Origin: a virus
IMG/VR virus record: IMGVR_UViG_3300020578_000513
Location: 1-20,783 of that record
Length of the DNA: 20,783 nt
Direction: 5' to 3' (one strand)
Shown here: piece by piece, positions 1 through 18,818 of the stretch
Layout: the number at the start of each line of letters is the position of its first letter
How positions within the stretch are numbered: position 1 is the first letter of the stretch
Program-made: the position numbers and the translations under genes
Notes under the pieces: model-generated
Databases searched by the model: none
What the model was told of the DNA's origin: nothing
The model's input: only the letters and a program-made list of their open reading frames with translations

Positions 1-510
1 TCCGTACATTGTGATATTGAGGTTCTGCTGACTCACATTTATGCCAATGCCATTGCTAACCTGTAGTGAGTTGTCTCCGATGTTAATTTCAGAGGGAGCA
101 ACGATATTTAATTGCTGCGCGTCGTTGCCGTTCACCACGCCCATGACATGAGTGGCAGAGATATCGGTGTAGTCGGAGATCAATCCAAGACGATTTCCAA
201 ACACAAACTTATGTTGATCATTGTACTCCCCATCGCCGGGCCCCAAGTAGTATGCCGCGCTTGTGTTACCAGTGAGATATCCATTGTCGTCTGTGTATTG
301 TAATGGCCTAAGTGTGTCGTTAAAGGACTCCACTGCCGCGCTTGCAGCACGCCGGGTGAGTTCAATATAAGAAGTGCCTGCGGTATCTCCGCAAAACAGT
401 TTCTTGTCTGTCAGATTAATTGCAAGTTCTCCTGCCGCCAATGCATTGGCATCAGGAACCGCCTCTGCGGTGGAAGTTCTGAATTGTTTAATGGTGGTAT
501 CTTTGGGCAT
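1..510 (-). CDS. Tail fibre-like structural protein, N-terminal part (3' end outside window)
   Basis: The open frame runs from an ATG at 510 to the window edge without a stop, giving 170 residues of a longer protein. The start follows a GGAGA Shine-Dalgarno site 5 bases upstream. The N-terminus reads MPKDTTIKQFRTSTAEAVPD and continues with GELAINLTDKKLFCGD (about residues 27-42), the pattern common at the virion-proximal end of phage tail fibre or tropism-determinant proteins. The rest is rich in Asn, Gly, Ser and Thr, as in fibrous beta-structured phage proteins. It is probably a late virion protein; a TAAATA-type late promoter motif lies just upstream. The exact protein (fibre, hinge or capsid decoration) cannot be decided from this fragment. 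Confidence 0.7.
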   Translation of the reverse strand, partial: MPKDTTIKQFRTSTAEAVPDANALAAGELAINLTDKKLFCGDTAGTSYIELTRRAASAAVESFNDTLRPLQYTDDNGYLTGNTSAAYYLGPGDGEYNDQHKFVFGNRLGLISDYTDISATHVMGVVNGNDAQQLNIVAPSEINIGDNSLQVSNGIGINVSQQNLNITMYG

Positions 511-527
511 ACTGTCTCCATGTATTT

Positions 528-1016
528 CTATTTAGCATTAAAATGAGAGGTCTTGGTTTCCCACCAAAAGTGAACCATGTCATTGTCTCCATTGAACCAT
601 AGCGGGCAAATATCAGGCTTAAACCATGAGTTCAAATCGGCAGCCAAACAGCAAAAACACAAATGACTACGAGCGAACCCGTAGTCAAGCAGTATGCGTT
701 CCACATTGGCAAAGTTTTTGCCGCTCAGGCATCCTGAGTCCACCACAATGAACCGCTCATAAGGATCCAGTTGATCAGGATGAATGCGTACAGGAAACTC
801 ACCTGCATACGGGATATTTACTGGCTCTATATCAAGTGGCCCATTTACTTGACTCAGTTTGTGAGCCATGAGTTGCGCCAGCAGACCCGAATACTCGTAA
901 CTGAGTTGCAGAATGGCACAGCGTTCTGTGCTGAAAGTGGAGCGTATGTCATTGCATACTTTGTCCACCAAGCGCAGTTCCCAATCACGGTCAATCAAGA
1001 GATTGTGTTTTTTCAT
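528..1016 (-). CDS. Phosphoribosyltransferase-like protein
   Basis: 162 residues. Around residues 89-101, RFIVVDSGCLSGKNF resembles the PRPP-binding loop of type I phosphoribosyltransferases (hydrophobic strand, VVD, then a small-residue S/T-G-K/R-T/N turn). The C-terminal VHFWWE resembles the FWWE ending I recall from phage phosphoribosyltransferase-like proteins. The substrate is unknown; nucleotide salvage or regulation is possible. The second acidic residue of the usual DD pair is replaced (DSG), so catalysis is uncertain. I chose the ATG at 1016 over an in-frame TTG at 1019. The start lies 4 bases after tRNA-Thr, and the only Shine-Dalgarno-like sequence (AGGTG) is inside the tRNA acceptor stem. 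The family assignment rests on one motif and the ending. Confidence 0.5.
   Translation of the reverse strand: MKKHNLLIDRDWELRLVDKVCNDIRSTFSTERCAILQLSYEYSGLLAQLMAHKLSQVNGPLDIEPVNIPYAGEFPVRIHPDQLDPYERFIVVDSGCLSGKNFANVERILLDYGFARSHLCFCCLAADLNSWFKPDICPLWFNGDNDMVHFWWETKTSHFNAK
529..536 (-). promoter_or_regulatory. T4-like late promoter motif GCTAAATA
   Basis: On the minus strand GCTAAATA is followed by GAAAT, and then a leader of about 16 bases containing GGAGA before the ATG at 510. T4 late promoters are a TATAAATA box with initiation about 6 bases further on, so the spacing fits. The motif overlaps the stop codon of the upstream phosphoribosyltransferase-like gene. A near-identical element precedes the gene at 16930. 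Confidence 0.45.
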
Positions 1017-2637: not shown

Positions 2638-2835
2638 TTAGATCAAGCGACCAGTTGCCCACTCACGGTGCAGAAAATCATAAGCAGCATCAGTCAGGCT
2701 GCCATCTGCGTTCAAGTACTCTGTACAAGGATCTTCCTGATCGGTGTCCATGTCCATGTTCCATGCAGGATGCGAAGTAAGAAAATGTCCCACATTCAAT
2801 GTGGGCGGTACGGTATCTGTGATGGGGGTTTCCAT
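2638..2835 (-). CDS. Small unknown acidic protein, 65 aa
   Basis: The ATG at 2835 is preferred over an upstream in-frame TTG (2871), because a TTGACG-17-TATCTT promoter ends only 7 bases before this ATG and its -35 box overlaps that TTG. There is no Shine-Dalgarno site. The protein is acidic and Pro/Thr-rich at first, and ends in a helix-like DAAYDFLHREWATGRLI. I do not recognise it. It leads a two-gene unit with the acidic-tail protein downstream. Confidence 0.55.
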   Translation of the reverse strand: METPITDTVPPTLNVGHFLTSHPAWNMDMDTDQEDPCTEYLNADGSLTDAAYDFLHREWATGRLI

Positions 2836-2871
2836 GCTCTTAAAGATACACCAATCCCCCACGCTCGTCAA
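2836..2871 (-). promoter_or_regulatory. Promoter TTGACG-17-TATCTT placed 7 bases before ATG (leaderless type)
   Basis: The -35 is TTGACG (2871-2866), the spacer is 17 bases, the -10 is TATCTT (2848-2843), and the discriminator TAAGAGC leads directly into the ATG at 2835. A normal start site 6-8 bases after the -10 would fall on or next to the A of ATG. It is one of five promoters in the window with this geometry. Confidence 0.5.
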
Positions 2872-2889
2872 GCCAGATTAGCAAAATAA

Positions 2890-3111
2890 TCAAGAATTCA
2901 TTGCTCGACCCACAGCAGTTTCGATGCCAGCAACGGCAACTCGGAGTGCTTCAGGATCAACTTTGCCACCTTTGGATTTGGCATCATGCCCATCGGCAAT
3001 TGCCTGTATATGTTTGGCAAATACCAGTATTTCTTTCAGCGCGTCTTCGCGGGCATACGCACCTTCTAACGCAAGATTTTGATACAGCAGGTCAACTCGT
3101 TGTTTTCTCAT
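2890..3111 (-). CDS. Small helical unknown protein, 73 aa
   Basis: Start ATG at 3111 with AAGGA about 10 bases upstream. The predicted product is almost wholly helical: a basic N-terminus (MRKQRVDLLYQ), a central helix with EDALKEILVFAKHIQ, and a C-terminal helix EALRVAVAGIETAVGRAM. No motif is recognised. It is the first gene after the strong terminator at 3144-3180, so it must have its own promoter; a TATAGA/TAGTAT-rich stretch lies between the terminator and the ATG, without a clear -35. Confidence 0.65.
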   Translation of the reverse strand: MRKQRVDLLYQNLALEGAYAREDALKEILVFAKHIQAIADGHDAKSKGGKVDPEALRVAVAGIETAVGRAMNS

Positions 3112-3143
3112 AGCGAACCCATCCTTTCATACTATCTATATCG

Positions 3144-3180
3144 GCCAAAAGAAAGGGGAGTGTCGCTAGGACACTCCCCT
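3144..3180 (-). terminator. Intrinsic terminator after the 99-aa gene
   Basis: A perfect 11-bp stem (3154-3164 with 3170-3180) with loop of 5 is followed on the minus strand by TTTCTTTT. It lies 43 bases past the stop of the gene at 3223-3522. A second hairpin GTGCGC-TAAC-GCGCAC (3190-3205) sits just before it in transcription order. It should stop minus-strand transcription coming from the 3522 promoter. Confidence 0.85.
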
Positions 3181-3222
3181 GTCTCACTTGTGCGCTAACG
3201 CGCACCCATCACAAAATGTGAA

Positions 3223-3522
3223 TTACCACGCGATGTGGAATTCGCCACCGTTCGGTGCAACCGTAAAGGTCGCATTGCGAACAGACACAGAGGAATCGTC
3301 ACCGAGATAATCGGAAAGATCAGACTCCATGTTCAGAACATTCACAGACTTGCAGCGATACTGGCTCGCAGGAGTGATCGAAGCGTTCAGGCTTCGGCCG
3401 TTTCCTGTGAACTTGGGTGATACACCGAAGTACTGCTTCGACAGGCGCGTGATGATATCACGAACAGTCGAAGTGTTCTTAAGATTGCGGGCGTTAACAA
3501 CGATAGTAGGATAGGTCTTCAT
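3223..3522 (-). CDS. Small unknown protein, 99 aa, own transcription unit
   Basis: Start ATG at 3522 behind AAAGGAAACCAA, a strong Shine-Dalgarno site. The product has a beta-strand start (MKTYPTIVVNARN), a helix with TSTVRDIITRLSKQYFGV, then Ser/Asn-rich strands and a beta-like end (ATFTVAPNGGEFHIAW). No family is recognised. It is bounded by its own promoter with a palindromic operator-like element (3581-3620) and by a terminator, which suggests individually controlled and possibly high expression. Confidence 0.72.
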   Translation of the reverse strand: MKTYPTIVVNARNLKNTSTVRDIITRLSKQYFGVSPKFTGNGRSLNASITPASQYRCKSVNVLNMESDLSDYLGDDSSVSVRNATFTVAPNGGEFHIAW

Positions 3523-3580
3523 TTGGTTTCCTTTGTATAGAAGACTTGCGAATCAGACTCCCCGTGTTGGGGACTCATAT

Positions 3581-3620
3581 ACTATACCACAGAATTTGAT
3601 TAGCACAAGTCCTGTGGTAT
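3581..3620 (-). promoter_or_regulatory. Promoter TTGTGC-16-TATAGT with overlapping 9-bp inverted repeat
   Basis: On the minus strand -35 TTGTGC (3608-3603) and -10 TATAGT (3586-3581) are 16 bases apart. A perfect inverted repeat ATACCACAG (3584-3592) / CTGTGGTAT (3612-3620) brackets the -35 and covers the start of the -10 box, as expected for a repressor operator. The leader also contains a CCCC/GGGG hairpin near 3558-3572. Confidence 0.5.
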
Positions 3621-3626
3621 AATTTG

Positions 3627-4034
3627 TCAAACATTCTTAGTGCCGTTCCCGGCGTCAGACTGCTTGGAATTCTTGTACTGAGCCAGAACGGCCTCTGTGA
3701 GGCCGCCGGCGCGCAGAGCAGACAGAAACAAAATTTCAATTTCATCAATTTCATCTGCTGTTAGTTCGTTCTTTTTGTCGGCAAAATAAGCCATGAAAGA
3801 TCGCGCCAATCGGAACGCAAACTCTGGCTTGTTCAGATCAATGGCAGAATAGCCAAGTGCCAGCACAAGCGCGAGCGAATCACTAGTCATGGTTTTGCTG
3901 CCAGGCGCGCAACCAATCACAAGCGAAAGCAAATGTTTGCGGCCGCCCGCGTAGTGACACGCTGTGTCCACAAGATCTGCAAAGTCTTGGCTTAAGGGAT
4001 CAATTCCGAACGATGAAAAGTCATTGTTTTGCAT
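3627..4034 (-). CDS. Unknown helical protein, 135 aa
   Basis: Start ATG at 4034 behind AAAGGAA. The product looks mainly helical: residues about 12-60 include DFADLVDTACHYAGGRKHLL, and a second half has LARSFMAYFADKKNELTADE and EIEILFLSALRAGGL. No catalytic motif is visible. It follows the gene at 4046-4435 by 11 bases and probably belongs to the ligase operon. The inverted repeat at 3584-3620 begins 7 bases after its stop and could also form a hairpin in the RNA. Confidence 0.7.
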   Translation of the reverse strand: MQNNDFSSFGIDPLSQDFADLVDTACHYAGGRKHLLSLVIGCAPGSKTMTSDSLALVLALGYSAIDLNKPEFAFRLARSFMAYFADKKNELTADEIDEIEILFLSALRAGGLTEAVLAQYKNSKQSDAGNGTKNV

Positions 4035-4045
4035 GGTATGTTCCT

Positions 4046-4435
4046 TTACGCTTCTAGCGCGTAGTTAATGTTGGTGCGCGATGATTTTATTTCATGTGGC
4101 CCACCGCTTAATTCGTTTAAAAGACCAAGCCCGTTCATGTTACAAGTGGGATCTTCTTCCCAAATGTTGTGGCTGCACGGGGTGATGTTGTATGGAAATC
4201 CATCTATGGCTCCAAGAATATGACCGTTGCTTAAATCCACAAACCACAGAACTTGCACATGATCAAGAGTGGACACAGCACAGTATTTGTTGCCTGGATC
4301 ATTCACGACAAGAGGCGGCGCATCAACAAGGCGCCGTTTTTGATTAATGGTGTCCACAATGTCGTACATACGCGCCAGCACAACTCCAAATGTTTTGTAG
4401 TTGTTTTCTATGTCATTGTTGATCAGAAGCATCAT
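4046..4435 (-). CDS. Unknown protein, 129 aa, overlapping the DNA ligase gene
   Basis: The ATG at 4435 overlaps the ligase stop in an ATGA arrangement, so translation is probably coupled. A second ATG follows at once, and an in-frame GTG exists at 4453. The product has an N-terminal helix, a central strand-rich segment (STLDHVQVLWFVDLSNGHIL) and a Cys- and Trp-containing segment (CSHNIWEEDPTCNMNG). No family is recognised. Its position suggests a function accompanying the ligase, but there is no direct evidence for that. Confidence 0.65.
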   Translation of the reverse strand: MMLLINNDIENNYKTFGVVLARMYDIVDTINQKRRLVDAPPLVVNDPGNKYCAVSTLDHVQVLWFVDLSNGHILGAIDGFPYNITPCSHNIWEEDPTCNMNGLGLLNELSGGPHEIKSSRTNINYALEA

Positions 4436-5553
4436 TCGTAGTCTCTCACACATACACCCACAGGAAATCGTGGAAGTTTGCCGTTTGTTAGGCCTTGGTA
4501 TCGAACCGTGAGCAATTTGCCAATCACGGTTTTGGGTTTGTCAAGGTACTGCTTCAGCGTGTCAAGAGCGCCTTCCATTTTGCAACGAAACTCGCCGCCC
4601 TGGCCCTGGCACACAAATACTGCACACTCTGCCATGCGACCGCGACCAGGCTCAACGCCAATAATCTTAAACTCAGCGTCATCAAATTCTTTGATTTTCT
4701 GAATGTTGTAGGATCGCTTGTGTTCGTATGAAGCATCATTGCGAATCATGGCGCCTTCGTATCCTGCTGTGCGCCAATCAGTGAAATACTGAATCACCTC
4801 TTCAGGAGCCGCCACAGTCACCGTGGGCACAAGCACCACAGTATTGTTGAATCGATCAGCAGCCTGCTGCAACCACTCCAAGCGACTGGAAAAGGAGCCG
4901 GATCGAATGGTGTCGTACACATGGTATTGCACCATGTCACACCGAGCATCAGGCTTGTCTTTGCGAACAAGCGATACAATCTCTTCAAATTGATCTCGGT
5001 ACTTGTGATTGTACAGTTCGCCGTCAAGCACCACAGATTCTGTGGGAAATGCCTGTTCCAGTGCTGCGGCAATGTGCGGCACACTTTTGATTTGTTTGCG
5101 AGTGCGCGTCCACAGCGTACACTTGCCGCTTTTCAGGATGGCGATACATCGAATGCCATCTAGTTTCGGTTGCATGAATGCAGGATACACAATTTTGTGT
5201 GAGTGTTCGCTCCACTTGTGCGCCAGCATGGGATCCATGCCGCCAGCAATGTGAGCCTTGCTTACTTGGCCCGCGGCCGCTGCTTTGGGATCAGAGTTAT
5301 ATCCGCTTCGCTGCTTTTTTTGCCAGGCGCTTTGCGCTTCTGCCACTGCCTGCTGTTCAGGAGTGGTGGCGTTGGCACGGCCGATATTTTTGCCGTGATG
5401 AATCACATCTTCGGTGCGTTGTTCGGCTCCGCCCTGGCGGCCAAACACACGAATGATCTTGTTGCCGATCACAGTGATTTGCCACACCTGAATGGAGCCA
5501 TCAGAGTTCTGAGCGTACAGCGTAGGAAAAACAACGGTGTGAATCAAGTTCAT
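4432..5553 (-). CDS. ATP-dependent DNA ligase with N-terminal WGR-like domain
   Basis: Seals DNA nicks using ATP. Counting from the ATG at 5553 (373 residues), a WGR-like DNA-binding domain occupies about residues 1-85 (IQVWQITV, VFGRQGG). The nucleotidyltransferase motifs follow in order: motif I KLDGIR with adenylated Lys at 130, motif III LDGELY near 176-181, motif IV EGAMIR near 266-271, motif V IQKIKEF near 284-290, then an OB-fold domain with GKLLTVRYQGLTNGKLPRFP. The enzyme appears complete. A longer form from a TTG at 5595 is possible: that codon overlaps the upstream stop and has GGAGAA at suitable spacing. I prefer the ATG because the WGR-like domain starts there. Phage ligases of this type act in replication and repair. 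Confidence 0.93.
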   Translation of the reverse strand: MNLIHTVVFPTLYAQNSDGSIQVWQITVIGNKIIRVFGRQGGAEQRTEDVIHHGKNIGRANATTPEQQAVAEAQSAWQKKQRSGYNSDPKAAAAGQVSKAHIAGGMDPMLAHKWSEHSHKIVYPAFMQPKLDGIRCIAILKSGKCTLWTRTRKQIKSVPHIAAALEQAFPTESVVLDGELYNHKYRDQFEEIVSLVRKDKPDARCDMVQYHVYDTIRSGSFSSRLEWLQQAADRFNNTVVLVPTVTVAAPEEVIQYFTDWRTAGYEGAMIRNDASYEHKRSYNIQKIKEFDDAEFKIIGVEPGRGRMAECAVFVCQGQGGEFRCKMEGALDTLKQYLDKPKTVIGKLLTVRYQGLTNGKLPRFPVGVCVRDYE

Positions 5554-5591
5554 GTGAGTGGAAGGCCTGCTGAAAGCGGTTTGGTGTTGGT

Positions 5592-5819
5592 TCAAAGCAT
5601 TTCTCCAATGGAGTCAAGGCTAATCTCAACCACCGGCTCGAAATCCCTGGCATCGCCGCAAATGCCTGTGATCATGGCATCATCGTACTGCTTGCGTGGG
5701 ATGACGCAAATGCTGCATCCTGCGATATCGGTGAAGGTTTCCCCGTCATTAAGAACAACCACAGTAACGAAATCACTCTTGTTCATGGTATCTGGCAACG
5801 GTATTGGGTTTTTGTGCAT
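5592..5819 (-). CDS. Small unknown protein, 75 aa, upstream of ligase
   Basis: The start is set at ATG 5819 because a TTGACT-16-TAAACT promoter ends 6 bases before it; an internal ATG (5786) and an upstream TTG (5825) are less likely. There is no Shine-Dalgarno site. The product has a strand-rich core (DFVTVVVLNDGETFTDIAG, CSICVIPRKQYDD) and an acidic C-terminus. No family is recognised. It opens the ligase operon, and its stop overlaps a possible TTG start of the ligase. Confidence 0.6.
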   Translation of the reverse strand: MHKNPIPLPDTMNKSDFVTVVVLNDGETFTDIAGCSICVIPRKQYDDAMITGICGDARDFEPVVEISLDSIGEML

Positions 5820-5853
5820 GAACAAAGTTTACTGTGTTTTGCGGAGAAGTCAA
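5820..5853 (-). promoter_or_regulatory. Promoter TTGACT-16-TAAACT placed 6 bases before ATG (leaderless type)
   Basis: The -35 is TTGACT (5853-5848), the spacer is 16 bases, the -10 is TAAACT (5831-5826), and the discriminator TTGTTC leads into the ATG at 5819. The geometry is the same as at 2836, 6890, 9676 and 9899. TTGCAGGCA, the sequence that forms the -35 region of the two CobS/CobT promoters, also occurs about 20 bases upstream. Confidence 0.5.
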
Positions 5854-5961
5854 GTGAAACATGAGATTGCCTGCAAGATTTGTAAGATTCTTTGCCTGGT
5901 TTGGCCTGCCGACTTCAGCAACCCATTTTTGGCCCCGCGTGTCAGAGCGTTCTGGCATCAA

Positions 5962-5983
5962 CCCCCCACCCCCCCCCCGCCCC
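5962..5983 (-). other. Potential G-quadruplex: G4-C-G10-T-G6 on minus strand
   Basis: The plus strand has runs of 6, 10 and 4 cytosines separated by single A and G bases. The minus strand therefore carries GGGG-C-G(10)-T-G(6), enough for four tracts of three or more guanines. It lies about 110 bases upstream of the ligase operon promoter, in the non-template strand for that operon. The exact run lengths may be affected by sequencing error. Confidence 0.5.
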
Positions 5984-6075
5984 TGTTTTTATCGCAGGCC
6001 CCTGAATCCATTCTGGCATATAACAGCACATCACAGTGCAGCAGATGCTCACCTGACATATAAGCAGCACAGCAA

Positions 6076-6266
6076 GGCCTAGGCCCTTGAAGGGCCTTGG
6101 ATGCAAGGGCACGCACGGTCTGGGAGATATACCTTGGTATACCTTGGGAGATCTACGCGAGTGGCGCCCATGAACGCCTAGGCGTCGGCGCGGATCGGAA
6201 AATATTAACTTAACAACTTAACACTAGTGGGAAACTAGTGCGGGCCGCTGTCAACGCCCATGGGCG
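6076..6266. repeat. Cluster of perfect palindromes
   Basis: Within 191 bases lie GGCCTAGGCC (6076-6085), GGTATACC (6136-6143), AGATCT (6149-6154), GGCGCC (6163-6168), ACGCCTAGGCGT (6174-6185), CACTAGTG (6222-6229), ACTAGT again (6234-6239) and CGCCCATGGGCG (6255-6266). Four contain CTAG. The arms touch without a loop, which favours dimeric protein binding to DNA over RNA hairpins. Confidence 0.6.
6207..6222. repeat. Tandem 8-bp repeat AACTTAAC x2 beside AT-rich patch
   Basis: AACTTAAC occurs at 6207-6214 and again at 6215-6222, directly after AAAATATT. It sits between the ACGCCTAGGCGT and CACTAGTG palindromes. The combination of a small iteron, an AT-rich patch and palindromes is origin-like, but two copies are few. 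Confidence 0.4.
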
Positions 6267-6328
6267 ATGGGCAACGGCGGCGCGTGGAGCGCAGAGATCG
6301 AGCGACTGCACCGAACACAGCGATGCGT

Positions 6329-6368
6329 TAAAAGAAAACCGCCCCCGTGCTAGGCACACAGGGGCGGT
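6329..6368 (-). terminator. Intrinsic terminator after the Ser-tract gene
   Basis: A 12-bp stem (6338-6349 with 6357-6368, one G-T pair, loop of 7) is followed on the minus strand by TTTTCTTTT. It lies 80 bases past the stop of the gene at 6449-6889 and ends the transcription unit that includes the CobS-like gene. Confidence 0.88.
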
Positions 6369-6448
6369 GAAGGGACTACTGGCGAGCGGTATTGCCTAGA
6401 GGGCTGAGCGAATCAGCCACGCGCCGAAGCGCCGCGTTACGCGGAGGC

Positions 6449-6889
6449 TCAAGCCGTAGTTGTGGGAAGACCAGCAGCAATCATGCAGCCGGGGTGGTTG
6501 GGATCAGGCACAAACCCCTTGGGCAAGGTGCCCAGTGCAGCGCGTTCCAGTACTCGCTCTGCAAGTTCTGGCACATAAAACACGCCACGAGCAGTGCGGC
6601 GATCAAGATCAGCCGTGAGCCATGATGGCCACGGAAACGAGTCAGGGTAGCCCAGGCTGGCAGCGGTAGCCACCACAGCGCGGCGAGTAGTACTGCCGCC
6701 CGAGTAACCGGCGCTGATGAGCCCGTCAATGAACAGGGCTTGGCGCTTGCGAAGATCTGCGAACTTGTAGGTGCGGGAGGGGGAAACTGTGTTGGTTGTG
6801 TTCATGGTGTTGGAAACCTTGTTGGAGGAAGAGGAGGAAGAGGAAGAGGAGGAAGAGGAAGAGGAGGAAATGGTTGCTGGAGAACTCAT
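6449..6889 (-). CDS. Free-standing copy of the CobS-like N-terminal domain with poly-Ser leader
   Basis: 146 residues from the ATG at 6889. Residues 8-22 are 15 consecutive serines, then a Thr/Asn/Ser linker. Residues about 47-108 match the N-terminal domain of the neighbouring AAA+ ATPase: RKRQALFIDGLISAGY, then FPWPSWLTADLDRR and GVFYVPEL, against RKRSAFITACRKAGL, FSWPSWITADPSRR and GLFYVPEI. I infer a small winged-helix-like or adaptor domain. The product may compete with or bridge to the ATPase's partner. It has no Shine-Dalgarno site; the start is fixed by a promoter 6 bases upstream. An in-frame ATG at 6904 overlaps the -10 region and is unlikely. Confidence 0.75.
   Translation of the reverse strand: MSSPATISSSSSSSSSSSSSSSNKVSNTMNTTNTVSPSRTYKFADLRKRQALFIDGLISAGYSGGSTTRRAVVATAASLGYPDSFPWPSWLTADLDRRTARGVFYVPELAERVLERAALGTLPKGFVPDPNHPGCMIAAGLPTTTA
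6824..6868 (-). repeat. 15-bp tandem repeat encoding the serine tract
   Basis: In coding orientation the unit TCCTCCTCTTCCTCT is repeated three times, the last copy ending in TCC, and encodes all 15 serines. Loss or gain of one unit would remove or add five serines without changing frame. Confidence 0.85.
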
Positions 6890-6923
6890 GGTATTAATGT
6901 ACATCAGAATTGGTTGAAGTCAA
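6890..6923 (-). promoter_or_regulatory. Promoter TTGACT-16-TACATT placed 6 bases before ATG (leaderless type)
   Basis: The -35 is TTGACT (6923-6918), the spacer is 16 bases, the -10 is TACATT (6901-6896), and the discriminator AATACC leads into the ATG at 6889. There is no purine-rich ribosome site between promoter and ATG. Confidence 0.55.
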
Positions 6924-7031
6924 GAAAAGGCTAGAAGAAATGCAAAGATTTTATGCCTGATCAGGCGGTATATGCCTGTGATGGTTTGTCGGTCGCCGTG
7001 TGTAGGTGTTGACCATTCATCACATTGCAGA

Positions 7032-8330
7032 TCAGGCATCTACATCAGCCGCTGAGGTGATGGATGAGACATCTACATCAGCCAAGCGAGTCGGCGGGCA
7101 CGGCACTGCCTCGTGAACGCAAATCATTGGAACAGAAACCTGTCGGAATCCAAAAGAGTTTGCCAGAGTCTCGTACAACTCCGTGGCGTCCTCATGGAGA
7201 ATTACCCCTTGCAAACCAACTTCGTTGTTTTGCACAAGAGTCAAAGGATTGTACTCTTGGATGTTGGCTTCCAAATCTGCGGAGCGGCGGATGCCGGTAA
7301 TCACAGCAACGGCCCGGCCAAACGAATCACTGGCATGAGCGCGGCGCCGAGTTAGTTCAGACGGCACAGGCACTTCAACAAAGCAAACAAATGCAGAGGT
7401 GGGATCTGAGACACCTGTTTTCGGGCAAATGGAGCCCACATGATGTGCGGAAACTTTAGGTTGCAATCCACTGGCTTTGGCCAGACCGATTCGTTCCGAG
7501 GTCAGCAAATTGTCATTTTGCCACTTTCGCACAAGCCAATGAGCGGTTCGCACGAATGCGTGTGGCTGGAAAGCGGAATCCTTGAACGGTGCTTCTGCGC
7601 CTGCACGGATGCCGTAGTCCACGGCCGCAGCAGAGAGCGCATCAAGTGTGTTCACAGGCAAGCCCTTCTTTTCAATCAATTCGAATGCCACACGGATTTG
7701 ACCGTAGATGTTGCTTTCAGGAGCGGTGGTGGGTTGCTGCGCGGCCACGGTGGCCGGGCTGGGTGGAGTCGTTGGCCGAGGCGGAGGTGGAGTAACCGCA
7801 CCCACACCGTTAATCTCGCCACTAATGGCTTCTGCTGCATTCAACTCGTCAATTGCGTTCTGTGTCACGCGCTGTGCAGGCAAGTACCAACGGCTTTCAA
7901 CTGGGTCCCACTTGGCGCCGTGCTGCTTGGCGATGGCGCGATCCTCGAACGAAATATCAAGCGCAATGTCTGTGGGATTCCATGCCCACACAGCACGATC
8001 CCACACCCACGGCACATACTCGCGGGTCTTGAAGCCTGAGATCAGGCCGTTGGCGCGAAACCACTCCACGGCTTGTGAGCCGGAAGTGAACTTGGCGGCC
8101 GGCAAAGTCCATTCTTTGCCGTCCCAACGGGCACCGTGTCCCTTGGCGGTGCAACGGATACCCGTAGAACCACGCTTACCGAATGGAATGTTCAGCACCA
8201 GGCTGGCCAACTTGAATTGGCGGCCGCGATGTGAATGCCGTTGAGTTACGGTTGTGATGGCCGCACCAATATCGTTAACTGATGCGAGAGCCGAGGCAGG
8301 GAAAGTGTGATTTTGAAAGATGACAGGCAT
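7032..8330 (-). CDS. DUF5710-type protein with two repeats and a unique C-terminal domain
   Basis: 432 residues. Two copies of a DUF5710-like motif are visible: residues about 46-78 (KGHGARWDGKEWTLPA) and 125-152 (AKQHGAKWDPVESRWYLPA). DUF5710 is a small domain often found in plasmid and phage primase-like or DNA-processing proteins. A Pro/Thr-rich linker (about 180-205) leads to a C-terminal domain of about 220 residues that I do not recognise; it contains CPKTG and VPVPSELTRRR. The protein ends with two near-identical ADVD segments. The start ATG at 8330 has an A/C-rich leader and no Shine-Dalgarno site. It lies 40 bases downstream of the CobS-like gene and is probably co-transcribed with it. 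Confidence 0.78.
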   Translation of the reverse strand: MPVIFQNHTFPASALASVNDIGAAITTVTQRHSHRGRQFKLASLVLNIPFGKRGSTGIRCTAKGHGARWDGKEWTLPAAKFTSGSQAVEWFRANGLISGFKTREYVPWVWDRAVWAWNPTDIALDISFEDRAIAKQHGAKWDPVESRWYLPAQRVTQNAIDELNAAEAISGEINGVGAVTPPPPRPTTPPSPATVAAQQPTTAPESNIYGQIRVAFELIEKKGLPVNTLDALSAAAVDYGIRAGAEAPFKDSAFQPHAFVRTAHWLVRKWQNDNLLTSERIGLAKASGLQPKVSAHHVGSICPKTGVSDPTSAFVCFVEVPVPSELTRRRAHASDSFGRAVAVITGIRRSADLEANIQEYNPLTLVQNNEVGLQGVILHEDATELYETLANSFGFRQVSVPMICVHEAVPCPPTRLADVDVSSITSAADVDA

Positions 8331-8370
8331 TGTGTGTTTGTTTCTTGTGTTTGAGTTGACAGCGGCCGAA

Positions 8371-9675
8371 TCAAGCGTTCACGGCCTGCTGTGTGCGCCA
8401 AGGCGCTTGAACAGTTGCACCGTCTGTACCCGCAGTAGCGGCAGAGGCATTGTTGTTTGTTGTGGAATCAGCCGCAATAGCAGACGCATCCAGTTTGGTG
8501 TACAGATTCACGAACGACTTGCGATTCGCGTCATCGAAACGCGCACAAACCAGTTCCACGGCCTTGAGGCGCTCACCGAACACCGCGAACGCGGTCACGG
8601 TGTCGATCAAACGGCGCGTGGTCACGATTTCATCGCAACCACCCTCGTAGAAGGTTTTGCGGATGGCATCCGCCCACTTCACAAGCAGATCAGCGAACGG
8701 CTCGTCTGTGCAGCCCTTCTCGGCCATGTTCTTGCAGAGAATCTTGCGTTCCTGCGCCGCAGTGGGGTACGCCTGCTCAAAGGTGAACGCAAGGCGGTCA
8801 AGCATGGCGCTGTTCAGCACCTGCGCGCCGGCGAATCGACCTTCAGGATCGCCGCTGCCCTTCGTGTTTGCGGTGCAAACAATGGTGAAGCCCTTCTCGG
8901 GCCTGACCCAAGTGTTGATCTTTTTGATGAACACCGGCTTGCCTTCAAGCGCAGCCTGAAGACACATGATCTTGGGCGTGCCTTGATCCACTTCGTCAAG
9001 CAGCAGAACGCCGCCACGCTTCATGGCGAGAATGACAGGGCCATCTTGCCACACCATGTCGCCGTTCACCAGGCGGAATCCACCGATGAGGTCTTCCTCA
9101 TCCGTGAGCGCGGTGATGTTGCAGCGGAAAAACTCACGCTTCAAGTTCGCGCAAATCTGCTCCACCATCGTGGTCTTGCCGTTACCAGGCAGGCCGGTGA
9201 TGAAGATGGGAGCAAAGACGCCCTTACGGAACACCGCTTCCACATCCTTGTAGTGTCCGAACGGCACATAGGTGGACAACTTCTCAGGGATCATGGAGCC
9301 GAGTTCGTTGTTGAACACACACCCTGATTCGGCCGTGGCGTGCAGGTGATTCAGTACCGCAACCGTGGTAGACACGGTGGGCAAGGTGCTGATGGTTTTG
9401 ATAGCAGCCCGCGGCGCAGGCGCGGCGGGAGTCAAATCCTCGGGACCGAGAATCTGAGCAGAGGAATTGTTGTCGATCTCAGGCACATAGAACAAACCAC
9501 GACCTGCACGGCGAGAAGGATCAGCCGTGATCCACGACGGCCATGAGAAGCCGTCGGCTGCACCGTACTGGTTAACAACTGCAACCACATCGGCGCGAGA
9601 AATAGGAGTGCGAAGGCCGGCCTTGCGGCAGGCGGTGATGAACGCGGAACGCTTACGAGAGAGAGTAGTAGCCAT
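8371..9675 (-). CDS. cobS-like: CobS/MoxR-like AAA+ ATPase
   Basis: 434 residues. An N-terminal 60-residue domain (FSWPSWITADPSRR, GLFYVPEI) precedes an AAA+ module: Walker A GLPGNGKTT (161-169), GG-containing loop EEDLIGGFRL (193-202), Walker B VLLLDEVD (223-230), sensor TANT (268-271) and DRL arginine region near 293. This matches the CobS/MoxR group known from T4-like phages, where a cobalt-chelatase role has been proposed but not established. Its partner is almost certainly the divergent VWA protein, since MoxR-type ATPases usually work with VWA proteins to remodel a client. It is expressed from an exact inverted copy of the partner's promoter. No cobalamin genes are in the window, so the name describes homology only. 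Confidence 0.9.
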   Translation of the reverse strand: MATTLSRKRSAFITACRKAGLRTPISRADVVAVVNQYGAADGFSWPSWITADPSRRAGRGLFYVPEIDNNSSAQILGPEDLTPAAPAPRAAIKTISTLPTVSTTVAVLNHLHATAESGCVFNNELGSMIPEKLSTYVPFGHYKDVEAVFRKGVFAPIFITGLPGNGKTTMVEQICANLKREFFRCNITALTDEEDLIGGFRLVNGDMVWQDGPVILAMKRGGVLLLDEVDQGTPKIMCLQAALEGKPVFIKKINTWVRPEKGFTIVCTANTKGSGDPEGRFAGAQVLNSAMLDRLAFTFEQAYPTAAQERKILCKNMAEKGCTDEPFADLLVKWADAIRKTFYEGGCDEIVTTRRLIDTVTAFAVFGERLKAVELVCARFDDANRKSFVNLYTKLDASAIAADSTTNNNASAATAGTDGATVQAPWRTQQAVNA

Positions 9676-9710
9676 GGGTTAAGTCTACACCATAACTCCA
9701 ATGCCTGCAA
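9676..9710 (-). promoter_or_regulatory. CobS-like gene promoter TTGCAG-17-TAGACT (leaderless type)
   Basis: The -35 is TTGCAG (9710-9705), the spacer is 17 bases, the -10 is TAGACT (9687-9682), and the discriminator TAACCC leads into the ATG at 9675. It lies within the left arm of the 35-bp inverted repeat, so it is identical to the promoter of the divergent gene. Confidence 0.6.
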
Positions 9711-9930
9711 GGGCTTCCGTCACTTTTTTGACAAAATTCTTCAGATTTTTGTAAGTCATTGTCCGATAAGCACTTATGTTGACAGCGCGGTTATCGGACG
9801 GTCTGATAATCCACACTGGTAGCACCCTGTTAGGATTTTGTTAGGTTACAGCGTGTTATCGGACTACAAAAAAACTTGGGATTTTTGCACACAACCCCTT
9901 GCAGGCATTGGAGTTATGGTGTAGACTTAA
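9679..9930. repeat. 35-bp perfect inverted repeat forming two divergent promoters
   Basis: Bases 9679-9713 and 9896-9930 are exact reverse complements over 35 bases, 182 bases apart. Each arm holds the complete -35, spacer and -10 of one divergent gene and stops within the discriminator, so the similarity covers the promoter but not the coding sequence. Exact identity suggests recent copying or ongoing gene conversion. Confidence 0.92.
9761..9864. promoter_or_regulatory. Three copies of TTATCGGAC in the divergent control region
   Basis: TTATCGGAC occurs at 9791-9799 and 9856-9864 on the plus strand and at 9761-9769 on the minus strand. The two plus-strand copies share a wider context beginning ACAGCG. 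The second copy lies just downstream of a TTGACA hexamer (9779-9784). Further short repeats (TGTTAGG twice at about 9828-9846) and A/T runs fill the rest. These look like binding sites for one regulator or initiator. Confidence 0.5.
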
Positions 9931-9934
9931 GCAT
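9899..9934 (+). promoter_or_regulatory. CobT-like gene promoter TTGCAG-17-TAGACT (leaderless type)
   Basis: The -35 is TTGCAG (9899-9904), the spacer is 17 bases, the -10 is TAGACT (9922-9927), and the discriminator TAAGCAT leads into the ATG at 9935. No ribosome site fits between them. It lies within the right arm of the 35-bp inverted repeat. Confidence 0.6.
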
Positions 9935-12415
9935 ATGGCTACGCTCTCTCTTGTCGCTCCAAACCCGTCCGCACTTACCCGCAACGCGCAGGCCGCTACG
10001 AATTCGCTGGCGCGTTTGCTTGCCACCGAAAACATTCGCGTGGAACACCAGCCCGTGCCCACCGCGATGTTTGATACCGTGTCCCGTACTCTTGTGCTGC
10101 CTGTGTGGCATGGCATGAGCCAGGACCTGTACGATATGCTTGTGGGTCACGAAGTGGGTCACGCGCTGTGGACCCCGGCCACTGTCAACATCGTTGACGA
10201 GGCCATTCAGCGCATTCGCGCGGCTGGAGCGCCGAGCGATGCATGGGCAAAGTCCATTCTGAACATTGTGGAAGACGCTCGTATTGAGCGCCTCATCAAG
10301 GAGAAGTTTCCTGGCCTGCGCCGCAACTTCACCATTGCATACAAGGAACTCATCGACCGCGACATCTTTGGCCTTGCTGAAGTGAACGGTGATCCAAACG
10401 CCAAGGGATTTGTGGATCGCTTTAACCTGTACCACAAGTGCGGCGCCCTGGGTCTGATGCAGATTGCATTCACGACCAAAGAGTCGCCCATCGTGGATGC
10501 GGGCCAGCACACCAAGTCGTTTGAAGATGTGGTTGTGTTGTGCGAGCGTATTTGCGATATGCTCCGCCAGAACTGCTCCATGCCTGAGCCTCAGCACAGT
10601 GAAAACGGCGCCCCTTCTGCCAGTGGCGGCAACCAAGAGCAAGGCGAACAAGGCGAGCAAGGCGAACAATCGGCTTCTGATGACGCGAACGCTCAAGGTG
10701 AACAAGGTGAACAAGGTGAACAGCCTACGGCGTCACAAACCTCAGCAGGCGATAATGCGTCTGACGATACTGACGAAACACAGCAAGACGAAAAGTCCAA
10801 GCAACCTGGCAAGTCCTCTGGCCTCGACGACGGCAAAGGCCGCTCGGCCAAGGACGGTGCTGCCATCGGAGAGAACATCTCAACTGATGAGCGCATGGCC
10901 AAAGGCCTTGGTCGAATGGCTGACACCAATCTGAACGGCTACTACAACCGATACGCGGACGCGCCTGCGTTTGAATGGAATCGCTTGATTGTCACGGCTG
11001 AAGAAGTGATTGCCTTGTGGCGCAACCAATTCGTTTTGGCGCCCAAGGCTCAACCACTCATCGACTCGCTGTACGATGCATGGAAGCGCGACAACCTGCC
11101 CACTGTGATGAACATGGTGAAGCGGTTTGAACAGCGCAAGGCGGCTGATGATGCTCGCCGCACCATGACTGCCAAGAGCGGTCGTATTGATCCCTCGCGT
11201 CTGGCGTACTACAAGGTGAGCGATGATCTGTTTCTCAGCATGACCACCACCACGGATGGCAAGTCGCACGGACTTGTGATGCTTGTGGACTGGTCAGGCT
11301 CCATGAACGATGTGTTGGGTTCTGTGTTGAGCCAGGTGCTGTGTCTTGTGGAGTTCTGTCGCAAGGCCGGAGTGCCGTACGAAGTGTATGCGTTCTCTGA
11401 CTGTGTTCACGGTTGGAAGCCTGGTGAGGCTGCTTACGGAGAAGTGCCAGACGCAGACAAAGACGAGAACGGCTACTACAGAGTGTGCCGTGCAGAAACT
11501 GGCCGATTAATGCCGGCTGGATTCAAAATGGTTCAATTCCTGCGTAGCGGTATGTCTCGCGCTGATCACACCGATGCTGTGCGTGGCTTGGTGAGCGTGA
11601 TGTGCTTGCACCAGTACGAGCCTTTCGTTAACATTGTGAAAACAAAGTTTGCTGCGGAAGGCCACGGCACCGGCAGTTACTACAATCACCGTGCTGCGGT
11701 TTCTTATTTTGCACCCAAGTTTGCCGCTCCTGACGCCTTGAGCCTGAACGGCACTCCGCTGAACGAAGGCCTGCTTGCCAGTGCTGAAATCATTGAAGCG
11801 TTTCGCCAGCGTACCGGCGCACAGATCGTGAATCTGGCAGTGCTGACTGACGGCGATTCCACTCGCACTCTTACAGTGCATGAGGGTGCCCAGGCTCGCG
11901 CTGAGTATCACCGCGACCGCACAGGGCATGCTCGTCACCCGGCCATTGTGTTGCGTTGGGGCACCAAGCAATACACATTCGTGGACACCACGGGCCGCAA
12001 TTACTCGCGTCACAATGAAACCAATGCCATTGTTCGCTACCTGCGTGATCGCACTGGCGCTCGCGTGTACGGGTTCTACCTGATGAACGAGCGTAGCGCC
12101 AACCGCTCAGTGCGTGGTGGATACTTTCGTTTTCCAACCCACGAAGCGCAGCAGGCTGCTGCTGCACAGTTGGATGCTGATGGCTCGTGCATTGTGCCAC
12201 ACGAGGCATATGACGAGTACTATCTTGTGAGCATTGCTCCGCGTACTGAAACAGAAGACTTCATGGATCGCCTGGATGCTTCTTCGTTGTCTGCGCGTAA
12301 AATCGCAAACTCGTTTGCGAAGGGTATGCAAAATCGTTCCACTTCTCGCACCATCATGGTGCGCTTCACCGACTGCTTTGCCACTGGCAAGCCGTCACAA
12401 CACAAAATGCGTTAA
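9935..12415 (+). CDS. cobT-like: CobT-like VWA protein with N-terminal HExxH metallopeptidase-type motif
   Basis: 826 residues. The N-terminal domain has HEVGH (72-76) followed by IVEDARIERL (111-120), which could supply a third zinc ligand as in gluzincin-type peptidases. A low-complexity acidic linker (about 233-300) is made of EQG repeats and Asp/Gln-rich sequence, as is typical between the two halves of CobT-type proteins. The C-terminal VWA domain has the MIDAS motif DWSGS (452-456) and later TDGDS. I infer that it works with the CobS-like ATPase, either as a chelatase-like complex or as an ATPase-driven protease or remodeller. The start ATG is fixed by the promoter; an upstream in-frame ATG (9899 frame) would lie within the promoter. 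It is large, intact and of higher GC content than the region after 15044. Confidence 0.88.
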   Translation: MATLSLVAPNPSALTRNAQAATNSLARLLATENIRVEHQPVPTAMFDTVSRTLVLPVWHGMSQDLYDMLVGHEVGHALWTPATVNIVDEAIQRIRAAGAPSDAWAKSILNIVEDARIERLIKEKFPGLRRNFTIAYKELIDRDIFGLAEVNGDPNAKGFVDRFNLYHKCGALGLMQIAFTTKESPIVDAGQHTKSFEDVVVLCERICDMLRQNCSMPEPQHSENGAPSASGGNQEQGEQGEQGEQSASDDANAQGEQGEQGEQPTASQTSAGDNASDDTDETQQDEKSKQPGKSSGLDDGKGRSAKDGAAIGENISTDERMAKGLGRMADTNLNGYYNRYADAPAFEWNRLIVTAEEVIALWRNQFVLAPKAQPLIDSLYDAWKRDNLPTVMNMVKRFEQRKAADDARRTMTAKSGRIDPSRLAYYKVSDDLFLSMTTTTDGKSHGLVMLVDWSGSMNDVLGSVLSQVLCLVEFCRKAGVPYEVYAFSDCVHGWKPGEAAYGEVPDADKDENGYYRVCRAETGRLMPAGFKMVQFLRSGMSRADHTDAVRGLVSVMCLHQYEPFVNIVKTKFAAEGHGTGSYYNHRAAVSYFAPKFAAPDALSLNGTPLNEGLLASAEIIEAFRQRTGAQIVNLAVLTDGDSTRTLTVHEGAQARAEYHRDRTGHARHPAIVLRWGTKQYTFVDTTGRNYSRHNETNAIVRYLRDRTGARVYGFYLMNERSANRSVRGGYFRFPTHEAQQAAAAQLDADGSCIVPHEAYDEYYLVSIAPRTETEDFMDRLDASSLSARKIANSFAKGMQNRSTSRTIMVRFTDCFATGKPSQHKMR

Positions 12416-14151: not shown

Positions 14152-14559
14152 TTACTTCACAGATTTGTTTGTGGATTTGCGCTTCAGTTGTTTTGTGTGT
14201 GTTCCGCTGGCGCCAATGGCAGCATTTAATTTCTCGGCAGCAGATTGTTCAGCGCGCCACGGCTTCACACATTGCCCGTAGTTAAACCCAGCAGCCAGTC
14301 CAAACAAAGTTGCTAACCCTGTGTGCAAAATCACTTCTCCCCAAGTGGGCACAGCAGAAGTTAAAGCGTTTGCCAATGCACCCGCAGCGCACAAAGACAT
14401 CACTGCTTTCAACGCCAGAGTTTTGCACCTTGGCAAGTTGTACACAAACGAGTTGTCACGGCCAAACACACAAATCATGTACAGCATCATCAGAGCAGTG
14501 AGACTCATGTTGGCCACCAAATCAATCCATGTTTTTATGGTTTCCAAGTCAGCAGTCAT
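14152..14559 (-). CDS. Small membrane protein, possible holin partner
   Basis: 135 residues with three hydrophobic segments (about 12-33, 46-66 and 72-92) and a basic C-terminal tail (KQLKRKSTNKSVK). The start ATG at 14559 overlaps the stop of the preceding gene (ATGA), so the two are translationally coupled. Small three-helix proteins with charged tails, in pairs, are typical of phage holin/antiholin sets, but no lysis enzyme is in the window. The function is therefore only suggested. Confidence 0.6.
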   Translation of the reverse strand: MTADLETIKTWIDLVANMSLTALMMLYMICVFGRDNSFVYNLPRCKTLALKAVMSLCAAGALANALTSAVPTWGEVILHTGLATLFGLAAGFNYGQCVKPWRAEQSAAEKLNAAIGASGTHTKQLKRKSTNKSVK

Positions 14560-14945
14560 TCGGATTTGCTCTTTCTGGCTTTGACCGGCTTGGATTTTTT
14601 GTCTTCAGCAACGGCGCTCACTGCTTTGCCCACAGCAATCGGCGCTTCAAACCATTTGTTCACAATGAGTTCCAGGCCTTTCAGGCCGATGAATCCCATC
14701 ACGAACGCAGCAGCGTACTTGCCGCGGCTTTCTTGAATGGCAGCAGGAGCAAAATGCAACACCACGGGTGTGAGATAGTTGGCACACGCGGTGCCTGCCA
14801 GAATGCTGGCAACTGTGGGCCAGATGCGTTGTGCGCCTCGGCGACTCACCATCATTAGCGCACCAAAGAAGCCAGACACTAGTAGTCCCACTTCAATGCC
14901 GTATCCGATGAGAGTTTGTTCCCAATTGCTTGGAGGTTGTTCCAT
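14556..14945 (-). CDS. Small membrane protein, holin-like
   Basis: 129 residues, start ATG at 14945 with GAGGA upstream. Hydrophobic segments lie at about 12-33, 41-62 and 76-97; the last (AAAFVMGFIGLKGLELIVNK) resembles the final helix of some phage holins. The C-terminal tail is strongly basic (KKSKPVKARKSKSE), similar to the tail of the protein encoded just downstream. It is the first gene of the operon. The divergent gap to 15044 holds a palindromic ACTATAGT (14989-14996) that could serve as a -10 box in both directions. Confidence 0.62.
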   Translation of the reverse strand: MEQPPSNWEQTLIGYGIEVGLLVSGFFGALMMVSRRGAQRIWPTVASILAGTACANYLTPVVLHFAPAAIQESRGKYAAAFVMGFIGLKGLELIVNKWFEAPIAVGKAVSAVAEDKKSKPVKARKSKSE

Positions 14946-15043: not shown

Positions 15044-15811
15044 ATGACACACCCCAAGCCTTACTTGGTTTCCTCTCATTTTAAAGAAGATCTTGCTTGG
15101 TTCAACACTTGTCCATACGAGTATGTGGTGTACTCCAAACAACCTGAAGTAGCCAAACAACAAATACCAGAGAATCGAATAATTGAGTGTGCTAATGTTG
15201 GCATGGAAACTGGATCGTATCTATCGTATATCCTTGAACACTACCATGACTTGCCTGAACACATTGCATTCATTCACGGACACGAAACAGCATACCATCA
15301 AGCAGGAACCATTGTGCAGGCCATCCAGTACTGGCAAGAAAACCACAGTGATCTCAGATTCATGTCATTGAATTTTCCGCAAGAACGCTACTTCAGTATC
15401 GCAAATTGGTATTTACTTTCCGAGCGGTGTCCTGTGGTGAACGACGGCCATGGAAATTGTGTTGAAAGTATTTGGAATGCGCGAGATCATTCAACTATCG
15501 GCTTAAACTTGGGCCAGCATTGTGGAGCAAAGATATGGAGAGATATGCAAGTGGGTACTGATATGCCAATGGAGTGGGCGTACACAGCACATTGTCAGTT
15601 TGTTACACACCGAGATAACATTCTTCGCATCCCGCTTCGCTCGTGGCAGCGTGCATGGAACTTGCTTAACGATGAGACATATGTAAACTCCTTCGGTGGC
15701 CATTGGTGGATTGGATATGGTTGGGAGCATCTTTGGTCAACCATTCTGAATCTTGGCACAGATTGCGCCATCGAACCCGCGCACCTTGATCGGTGGAAGA
15801 GGCTGCGCTAA
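15044..15811 (+). CDS. DUF3431-family protein (glycosyltransferase-like)
   Basis: 255 residues, start ATG at 15044 behind AAAGGAGAA. Family-type segments are VSSHFKEDLAWF (9-20), ANVGMETGSYLSYIL (50-64), HIAFIHGH (73-80) and AHCQFVTHRDNI (182-193), which match the layout of DUF3431: an N-terminal strand, a GR/ME-x-TYL helix, an F-x-Q/H-G-H motif and an AQF-V-R element. DUF3431 members often sit beside glycosyltransferases. Its pairing with UDP-galactopyranose mutase, 2 bases downstream, supports a role in glycan synthesis or modification, perhaps of host O-antigen or of a virion glycan. The gene is more AT-rich than the CobT region. Confidence 0.75.
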   Translation: MTHPKPYLVSSHFKEDLAWFNTCPYEYVVYSKQPEVAKQQIPENRIIECANVGMETGSYLSYILEHYHDLPEHIAFIHGHETAYHQAGTIVQAIQYWQENHSDLRFMSLNFPQERYFSIANWYLLSERCPVVNDGHGNCVESIWNARDHSTIGLNLGQHCGAKIWRDMQVGTDMPMEWAYTAHCQFVTHRDNILRIPLRSWQRAWNLLNDETYVNSFGGHWWIGYGWEHLWSTILNLGTDCAIEPAHLDRWKRLR

Positions 15812-15813
15812 CA

Positions 15814-16914: not shown

Positions 16915-16929
16915 AACTGGAGAACATAC

Positions 16930-17352
16930 ATGAGCAATTCAAACCCTTTCGGATTCTCGTATCTGCTTGATATGTTTGGTTGCTTGCCAGGCACAGCAGA
17001 CAACATGGAACTCACCTATCGTTTTTTGGAAACGCTAGTGGATCAGTTGGGCATGACCCAAATGAGCGCACCTGTGGTGATTCGCGCACCGCGCATACAA
17101 GGGGTGACACAGTACACCGACAAAGCAAGCGTGAGTGGATGGGTGCCTCTCATTGAAAGTGGTATTCAGATTCAATCGGTGGAACCCACCCATTTCATCA
17201 CATTGGATGTGTATTCGTGTCGCCGGTTTGAACCCACCATGGTGTTTAATCTGGCGCAAGAAACTTTTGGTTTCATGGATCACACACACTTTTTCACTGC
17301 CCGAGGCAAACAGTACGGCTCACGATTGGATGCAGGAAAGTCAAGTGCATGA
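16930..17352 (+). CDS. S-adenosylmethionine decarboxylase-like protein lacking the pyruvoyl serine
   Basis: 140 residues, start ATG at 16930 behind GGAGA. The arrangement follows prokaryotic SpeD: an N-terminal FGCLPGTADN segment (16-25), VSGWVPLIESGIQIQSVEP (68-86) in place of VSG-(V)3-IAES-LAIHTWPE, and THFITLDVYSC (87-97) in place of AAVDVFTC. The cysteine (97) that acts as the proton donor is kept. The SSFH self-cleavage site that makes the pyruvoyl cofactor is absent (PVVIRAPRIQGV stands there), and the His of HTWPE is lost. If the assignment is right, this is a non-decarboxylating member that may bind S-adenosylmethionine or act structurally. Cyanophages are known to carry active speD genes. 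Confidence 0.55.
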   Translation: MSNSNPFGFSYLLDMFGCLPGTADNMELTYRFLETLVDQLGMTQMSAPVVIRAPRIQGVTQYTDKASVSGWVPLIESGIQIQSVEPTHFITLDVYSCRRFEPTMVFNLAQETFGFMDHTHFFTARGKQYGSRLDAGKSSA

Positions 17353-18805: not shown

Positions 18806-18813
18806 CATAAATA
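18806..18813 (+). promoter_or_regulatory. T4-like late promoter motif CATAAATA directly before ATG
   Basis: CATAAATA is followed by CTGGC and then the ATG at 18819. T4 late promoters initiate about 6 bases after the TATAAATA box, which would place the start at the A of ATG and give a leaderless late mRNA. A weaker CTTAAATA overlaps the collagen gene stop at about 18761-18768. Confidence 0.45.
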
Positions 18814-18818
18814 CTGGC

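Follow-up and report, generated by a model that had tools for sequence, protein, structure and literature searches.

Leaderless messenger RNAs (mRNAs) are already known in other phages and in bacteria. Phage transcripts are called 'often leaderless' in a paper on phage AR9 (PMC5312081), phage lambda has a known leaderless mRNA (PMC3160421), and Thermus phage phiYS40 makes leaderless middle and late mRNAs according to a passage of PMC3594737 that describes it (Sevostyanova et al. 2007). Bacterial leaderless genes are usually recognised by a TANNNT hexamer some 12 bp ahead of the start codon (Zheng et al. 2011, PMC3160421; Deinococcus-Thermus, PMC12340547). Here we describe five promoters with this placement in a complete IMG/VR virus record, IMGVR_UViG_3300020578_000513 (20,783 bases, 50% G+C, four transfer RNA genes; hereafter the window), two of which lie in front of the divergent genes cobS and cobT. 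Very probably these are real sigma70-type promoters of a phage that appears to be related to T4, placed so as to give leaderless mRNAs. A comparison with 50,697 phage records gave no near DNA match to the window.

The described systems resemble this phage in different ways. As far as the account of phiYS40 goes, it too expresses a set of phage genes from leaderless mRNAs; however, its transcripts are middle and late, its host is Thermus and it was studied as RNA, whereas the present phage is apparently a relative of T4-like phages known from sequence alone, and most of its promoters have a good -35 box. The same -10-to-start geometry and lack of a Shine-Dalgarno (SD) site are seen in the TA-led class of Zheng et al. 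2011 (PMC3160421), but in bacteria leaderless genes are a host-wide habit, whereas in this phage only a minority of the genes is concerned and a well-kept -35 box is the rule. The T4-related phages HTVC008M, Mosig and Syn1 have homologous CobS and CobT proteins, encoded by neighbouring genes; in them both genes lie on one strand with cobT first, whereas the genes are divergent with twin promoters in the window and in three other loci (L001, L153 and L175). In lambda the example is cI, transcribed from PRM: this is likewise a sigma70 promoter with its start site on the AUG, but it serves one gene, as against at least four independent promoters in this phage. No paper describing the leaderless geometry in T4-related phages was found in open-access text. 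What is new here is that in four phages the divergent cobS/cobT promoters are twinned within each phage around repeats of TTATCGGAC.

Five promoters and their counterparts in a relative

An earlier note had claimed promoters of this type before the genes starting at 2835, 5819, 6889, 9675 and 9935, and all five were found exactly there, with the geometry it gave (supporting evidence in brackets):

2843..2871, minus strand: leaderless promoter TTGACG-17-TATCTT-7-ATG, start 2835 (consensus score 9/12)
5826..5853, minus strand: leaderless promoter TTGACT-16-TAAACT-6-ATG, start 5819 (consensus score and counterpart in L001)
6896..6923, minus strand: leaderless promoter TTGACT-16-TACATT-6-ATG, start 6889 (consensus score and ortholog in L001)
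9682..9710, minus strand: leaderless cobS promoter TTGCAG-17-TAGACT-6-ATG, start 9675 (inside repeat arm 9679-9716)
9899..9927, plus strand: leaderless cobT promoter TTGCAG-17-TAGACT-7-ATG, start 9935 (inside repeat arm 9893-9930)

The degenerate motif on which the claim was based matches five times, against 0.03 expected, a figure that reflects its having been fitted to those matches; a neutral form, TTGNNN-N16/17-TANNNT-N6/7-ATG, was therefore used for testing. It gave 6 matches in the window against 0.76 +/- 0.93 in 300 dinucleotide shuffles (maximum 5). Five of the six are gene starts, and the sixth (5675) lies within a gene. In all five promoters the first T of the TANNNT hexamer stands 12-13 bp upstream of the start, and the excess holds when a -35 box is required. 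Scored against the E. coli consensus, 3 of 27 chosen gene starts reach at least 9/12 at 6-7 nt, compared with 0 of 769 other ATGs; lowering the threshold to 7/12 gives 5/27 and 22/769. The three TTGAC sites can therefore be accepted by themselves, while the cobS and cobT promoters, with just 7/12 each, need comparative evidence. The pair also forms a single inverted repeat of 38 bp (97% identical, 9679-9716/9893-9930), and hence there are four independent cases rather than five. With that reduction, the contention that the matches are hard to explain by chance stands, because an excess of the neutral motif is seen both here and in the relative described below.

That relative, the 17-kb contig L001 (56% G+C), has its genes in the same order as the window but runs the other way round, and it played no part in defining the motif. 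Identities to the window are 78% for CobS, 59-62% for CobT, 69% for the ligase and 79% over the conserved part of the 6889 protein. It contains four neutral-type matches against 0.21 expected, all at gene starts:

L001:9962: cobS promoter, TTGCAC-17-TAGACT-6-ATG
L001:9725: cobT promoter, TTGTGC-17-TAGACT-6-ATG
L001:12301: promoter of the ortholog of the 6889 gene, TTGACT-17-TATACT-6-ATG
L001:15089: promoter of the pre-ligase gene, positional counterpart of 5819, TTGACT-16-TATACT-6-ATG

The last pairing rests mainly on position before the ligase, because the protein alignment is weak (30% between L001 15089-15298 and window 5592-5819). L001 also has such a site, unmatched in the window, in front of a gene at 13916 that begins with GTG; the start codon is thus ATG in all five window genes and in 4/5 L001 cases. 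Across the four promoter pairs, the hexamers are better conserved than the spacer between them (41/48 positions identical versus 27/66), as expected of sigma70-type promoters, whose hexamers lie 16-18 nt apart, and the -10-to-ATG distance is kept at 6-7 in both phages though spacer lengths change. Because L001 keeps the placement at all four comparable genes, we consider the pattern, as read from the two sequences, to be real. No ortholog of the 2835 gene was found, and searches with a CobS alignment and the 6889 protein gave no close relatives other than L001.

The comparison also bears on the idea that the promoters fix gene starts. This works for four of the five, the 6889 gene, cobS, cobT and the pre-ligase gene, which agree with L001; for 2835 there is no ortholog to compare. 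In L001 the ATG corresponds to 6889, not to the in-frame ATG further upstream (6904), and CobT begins with MATLS in both phages, so that its start is fixed and conserved from residue 1.

The proposed mechanism is simple. The promoters (TTGACn or TTGCAn with TAnnnT) are very probably of sigma70 type and belong to a phage of a bacterial host. When 6 nt separate the -10 box from the ATG, transcription normally begins on the A of that codon; with 7 nt, the start falls on the preceding base or on the A, which is favoured as a purine. A -10 box located 6-7 nt before the ATG thus means that a host-type RNA polymerase starting on this A would make mRNAs beginning with AUG. It is established that 70S ribosomes bind leaderless mRNAs at the AUG of their 5' end (PMC9031893), and ribosomes may bind those of this phage in the same way, independently of an SD site. 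Other genes of the phage would use ordinary leaders with SD sites.

Shine-Dalgarno sites and timing

The earlier note saw no SD site at the five starts, and the pairing energies with the anti-SD sequence are indeed weak there (+0.7 to -2.8 kcal/mol); for ten neighbouring genes that it named as SD-led they are -3.3 to -12.5 kcal/mol, with no overlap between the two groups. Its division of the window into a leaderless and an SD class is less clean. The energies separate the named genes, but those at 8330, 12935, 17837, 4453 and 14559, and likewise 18819, lack both a leaderless sigma70 promoter and a good SD site, so the two classes do not cover the window. Moreover, gene 2264 has both an SD site and a sigma70-like promoter at a leadered distance (TTGCAT-16-TATACT, about 28 nt upstream), and therefore one sigma70-like promoter type serves both initiation modes.

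A different kind of box lies before the protease-like gene at 18819:

18807..18813, plus strand: T4-late-like box ATAAATA, 5 nt before ATG 18819, at a gene without an SD site

The sequence reads ATAAATA-CTGGC-ATG, and ATAAATACTGGC-ATG is identical at the L001 ortholog (L001:1328; window 18807-18821). This is suggestive of a T4-type late promoter at leaderless distance, the strength of the case being set by its single site in each phage. CTAAATA also occurs 16-18 nt before two SD-led genes (window 510-535 and 16905-16930), where the boxes are possibly leadered T4-type late promoters.

The earlier note suggested that the leaderless set is perhaps early; on this view it would be read by the host RNA polymerase, with the SD genes middle or late. 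Such a scheme would suit the gene content: cobS, cobT and the first gene of the ligase operon are leaderless, while the SD-led genes include a tail-fibre-like fragment (1-510), a holin-like protein (14556-14945) and 16930, with CTAAATA 16 nt upstream. However, the majority of the small SD-led genes lack a known function, and the leadered sigma70-like promoter of 2264, together with the conserved late-like box of 18819 at leaderless distance, implies that leaderless does not equal one temporal class. A leaderless class of the phiYS40 kind would share its time of expression, with a shift in initiation factors; among the leaderless candidates here the promoter types are mixed. The early-class scheme is one that we are slightly inclined to doubt.

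Leaderless spacing in other phages

A wider sample, 2.58 Mb in all, was made up of phage loci that protein or repeat searches had brought in, with L001 and motif-fetched loci left out. Distances were taken, after deduplication, from TTGAC-N17/18-TANNNT to the ATG of open reading frames (ORFs) of at least 40 codons; N17/18 includes the sixth -35 base, which leaves true spacers of 16 or 17 nt. Two modes emerge, a narrow one at 6 nt and a wide one at 21-40 nt. Distances of 6-7 nt make up 39 of the 218 (31 at 6 and 8 at 7, with 4 at 5), and SD sites accompany a fraction of 0.18 of these as against 0.69 at 21-40 nt. Three scrambled -35 boxes gave 0-2 matches at 6-7 nt, and the reversed pattern 1. 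Several sets contribute to this mode, chiefly low-G+C phages found through the ligase and phages with TTATCGGAC repeats. The same arrangement stands at the cobT start of three distant phages: TTGACT-17-TATAAT-6-ATG in L153, TTGACT-17-TATAGT-6-ATG in L172 and TTGACT-16-CATACT-6-ATG in L179. Judged by these distances, the leaderless geometry is a real and recurrent mode in environmental phages, though not a universal one.

A pattern search for strong leaderless promoters gave a further 81 phage stretches, which were kept out of the distance statistics because they had been picked with the motif. One of them belongs to a 51.7-kb contig (G004, behind L031) with 41 promoters of leaderless geometry against 0 in the control, an excess that goes far beyond the seed site by which it was found; its phage seems to use leaderless expression almost throughout. 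Two other motif-found contigs (G006 and G010) have 13-14 such sites against 0-1 in the control. Four low-G+C contigs (G017-G020, behind L188, L192, L200 and L202) have 7-26 against 0-1, and in L188, L192 and L202 one such promoter directly precedes the DNA ligase gene.

Several observations weigh against leaderless transcription. We infer the transcription start site from sequence geometry, and the mode of translation and the timing are likewise read indirectly; the promoter and translation preferences of the host are assumed. The -35 boxes of cobS and cobT are weak (TTGCAG, TTGTGC). Six cultured phages that carry a related cobS, cobT or ligase gene gave counts near those of controls, with no clear excess of the geometry, so it is not something that T4-related phages have in general. 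In the cobT set, many other phages have TTGAC promoters mainly at 13 nt or more. Finally, the distance is 9 nt at cobT of L177 and at cobS of L153, implying a leader of 2-3 nt.

These 9-nt cases lend some weight to an alternative in which the promoters are real but exact leaderlessness is incidental: RNA synthesis would begin 1-4 nt ahead of the ATG, or another promoter further upstream would give an mRNA with a leader that is translated independently of an SD site. The pooled distances also contain an excess at 8-12 nt, mainly 9, where SD sites are likewise few. Yet the pooled distances peak sharply at 6 nt itself, falling away steeply on either side, and every site in the window and L001 is at 6 or 7, which leaves this alternative rather improbable. 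Chance, in the form of a motif fitted to AT-rich stretches upstream of genes, is scarcely credible even though the degenerate motif was defined on its own five matches, two of these (9675 and 9935) are copies of one sequence and TANNNT 6-7 nt before ATG is not enriched by itself (18 versus 14.8), for both the window and L001 hold an excess of the neutral motif, the L001 result already contradicting chance, the hexamers and not the spacers are conserved and the scrambled controls are nearly empty. The excess over chance, the absence of SD sites, the conservation in L001 and the bimodal distances in other phages together make leaderless transcription the best reading.

The cobS/cobT control region and its surroundings

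The likeness of the cobS and cobT promoters is greater within phages than between them. Local alignment scores within the four phages are 36, 27, 18 and 14, where shuffles preserving base composition only average about 6-8; between phages they are lower, 14-16 for the window versus L001 and 9-13 for L153 versus L175. The L175 promoters were anchored on the -10 box, as its cobS start is uncertain; L153 is a distant member of the group (38% G+C, CobT 28% identical). This suggests that the twin promoters reflect concerted evolution or a shared constraint. Between them in the window lie three copies of TTATCGGAC, against 0.08 expected:

9761-9769, minus strand: TTATCGGAC
9791-9799, plus strand: TTATCGGAC
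9856-9864, plus strand: TTATCGGAC

The same intergenic region contains 3 copies in L001 and 2 each in L153 and L175, and L179 has 3 upstream of cobT. Our guess is that the repeats are operator or initiator sites. A TTGACA in the repeat region was considered as the true cobT promoter and rejected, having no TANNNT at 16-18 nt. A scan for close pairs of TTATCGGAC gave 78 phage stretches (L214-L290), some with 15-38 copies in 2-14 kb; the copies occur in both orientations, are often intergenic and tend to be preceded by G or A. A literature text search for TTATCGGAC gave nothing relevant by title among the matches listed. In L175, a DnaA-box-like TTATCCACA adjoins TTATCGGAC between the divergent genes (L175:1620-1760, on a contig binned with a Phycisphaerae metagenome-assembled genome), so that the region might conceivably serve as an origin of replication.

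The twin outward-facing promoters around TTATCGGAC probably provide matched, jointly controlled expression of CobS and CobT. More tentatively, and with the balance of our judgement somewhat against it, an uncultured T4-related clade may have rebuilt its cobS/cobT control as a divergent leaderless pair, kept identical within each phage by concerted evolution of the inverted repeat, around a TTATCGGAC array to which one shared regulator or initiator binds. Both subunits would then be made in strictly matched fashion and without leaders, in a phage mixing leaderless promoters of early and late type.

The genes of the window concerned in this analysis are as follows:

2638..2835, minus strand: ORF of 65 amino acids, without family match, downstream of the 2843..2871 promoter
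4432-5595: ATP-dependent DNA ligase
5592..5819, minus strand: ORF of 75 amino acids directly upstream of the ligase
6449..6889, minus strand: protein of 146 amino acids with the N-terminal domain of CobS
8371..9675, minus strand: CobS-like AAA ATPase (AAA_5, E 8e-17), resembling CobS of T4-related phages
9935..12415, plus strand: CobT-like protein ('peptidase', phrog_459, E 1e-151), start MATLS kept in L001

The closest database relatives of CobS and CobT are in T4-related phages of Pelagibacter, Synechococcus and Prochlorococcus, and both proteins match Kyanoviridae phages; among the genes of the 20.8-kb fragment, none was recognised as encoding a T4 capsid protein or terminase. Protein relatives of several window genes are spread over cyanophages, pelagiphages, rhizobial phages and gut phages. 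The sole cellular-genome match is the Phycisphaerae contig (L175); in that metagenome-assembled genome the leaderless geometry is not in excess (5 versus 7 in the control), so it says little about the host. The 6889 protein is 43-49% identical to the N-terminal domain of CobS over 63-64 amino acids, and L001 holds the same pair; a poly-serine run in the window's 6889 protein is absent from the L001 copy. Elsewhere in the window, a DUF3431 protein adjoins a phrog_9677 protein (15044-16914), relatives of which are found in gut, rhizobial and Aeromonas phages and which we take to be, probably, a UDP-galactopyranose mutase; the two may form a surface-sugar module. A collagen-like Gly-X-Y protein at 17837-18763 has tandem repeats of 9 and 27 bp.

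Finally, we note what such promoters offer to the study of phages known from environmental DNA. Spacing alone separates two modes of initiation, one at 6 nt without SD sites and the other leadered, rich in SD sites and at 21-40 nt, and gene starts that may escape gene finders relying on SD sites are corrected in this way. A control region open to testing is marked by the TTATCGGAC arrays and the twin promoters of cobS and cobT, and the search for the host may be narrowed to bacteria that translate leaderless mRNAs well. Uncultured phages rarely give a handle on gene expression; by this means, leaderless expression in environmental phages becomes countable.

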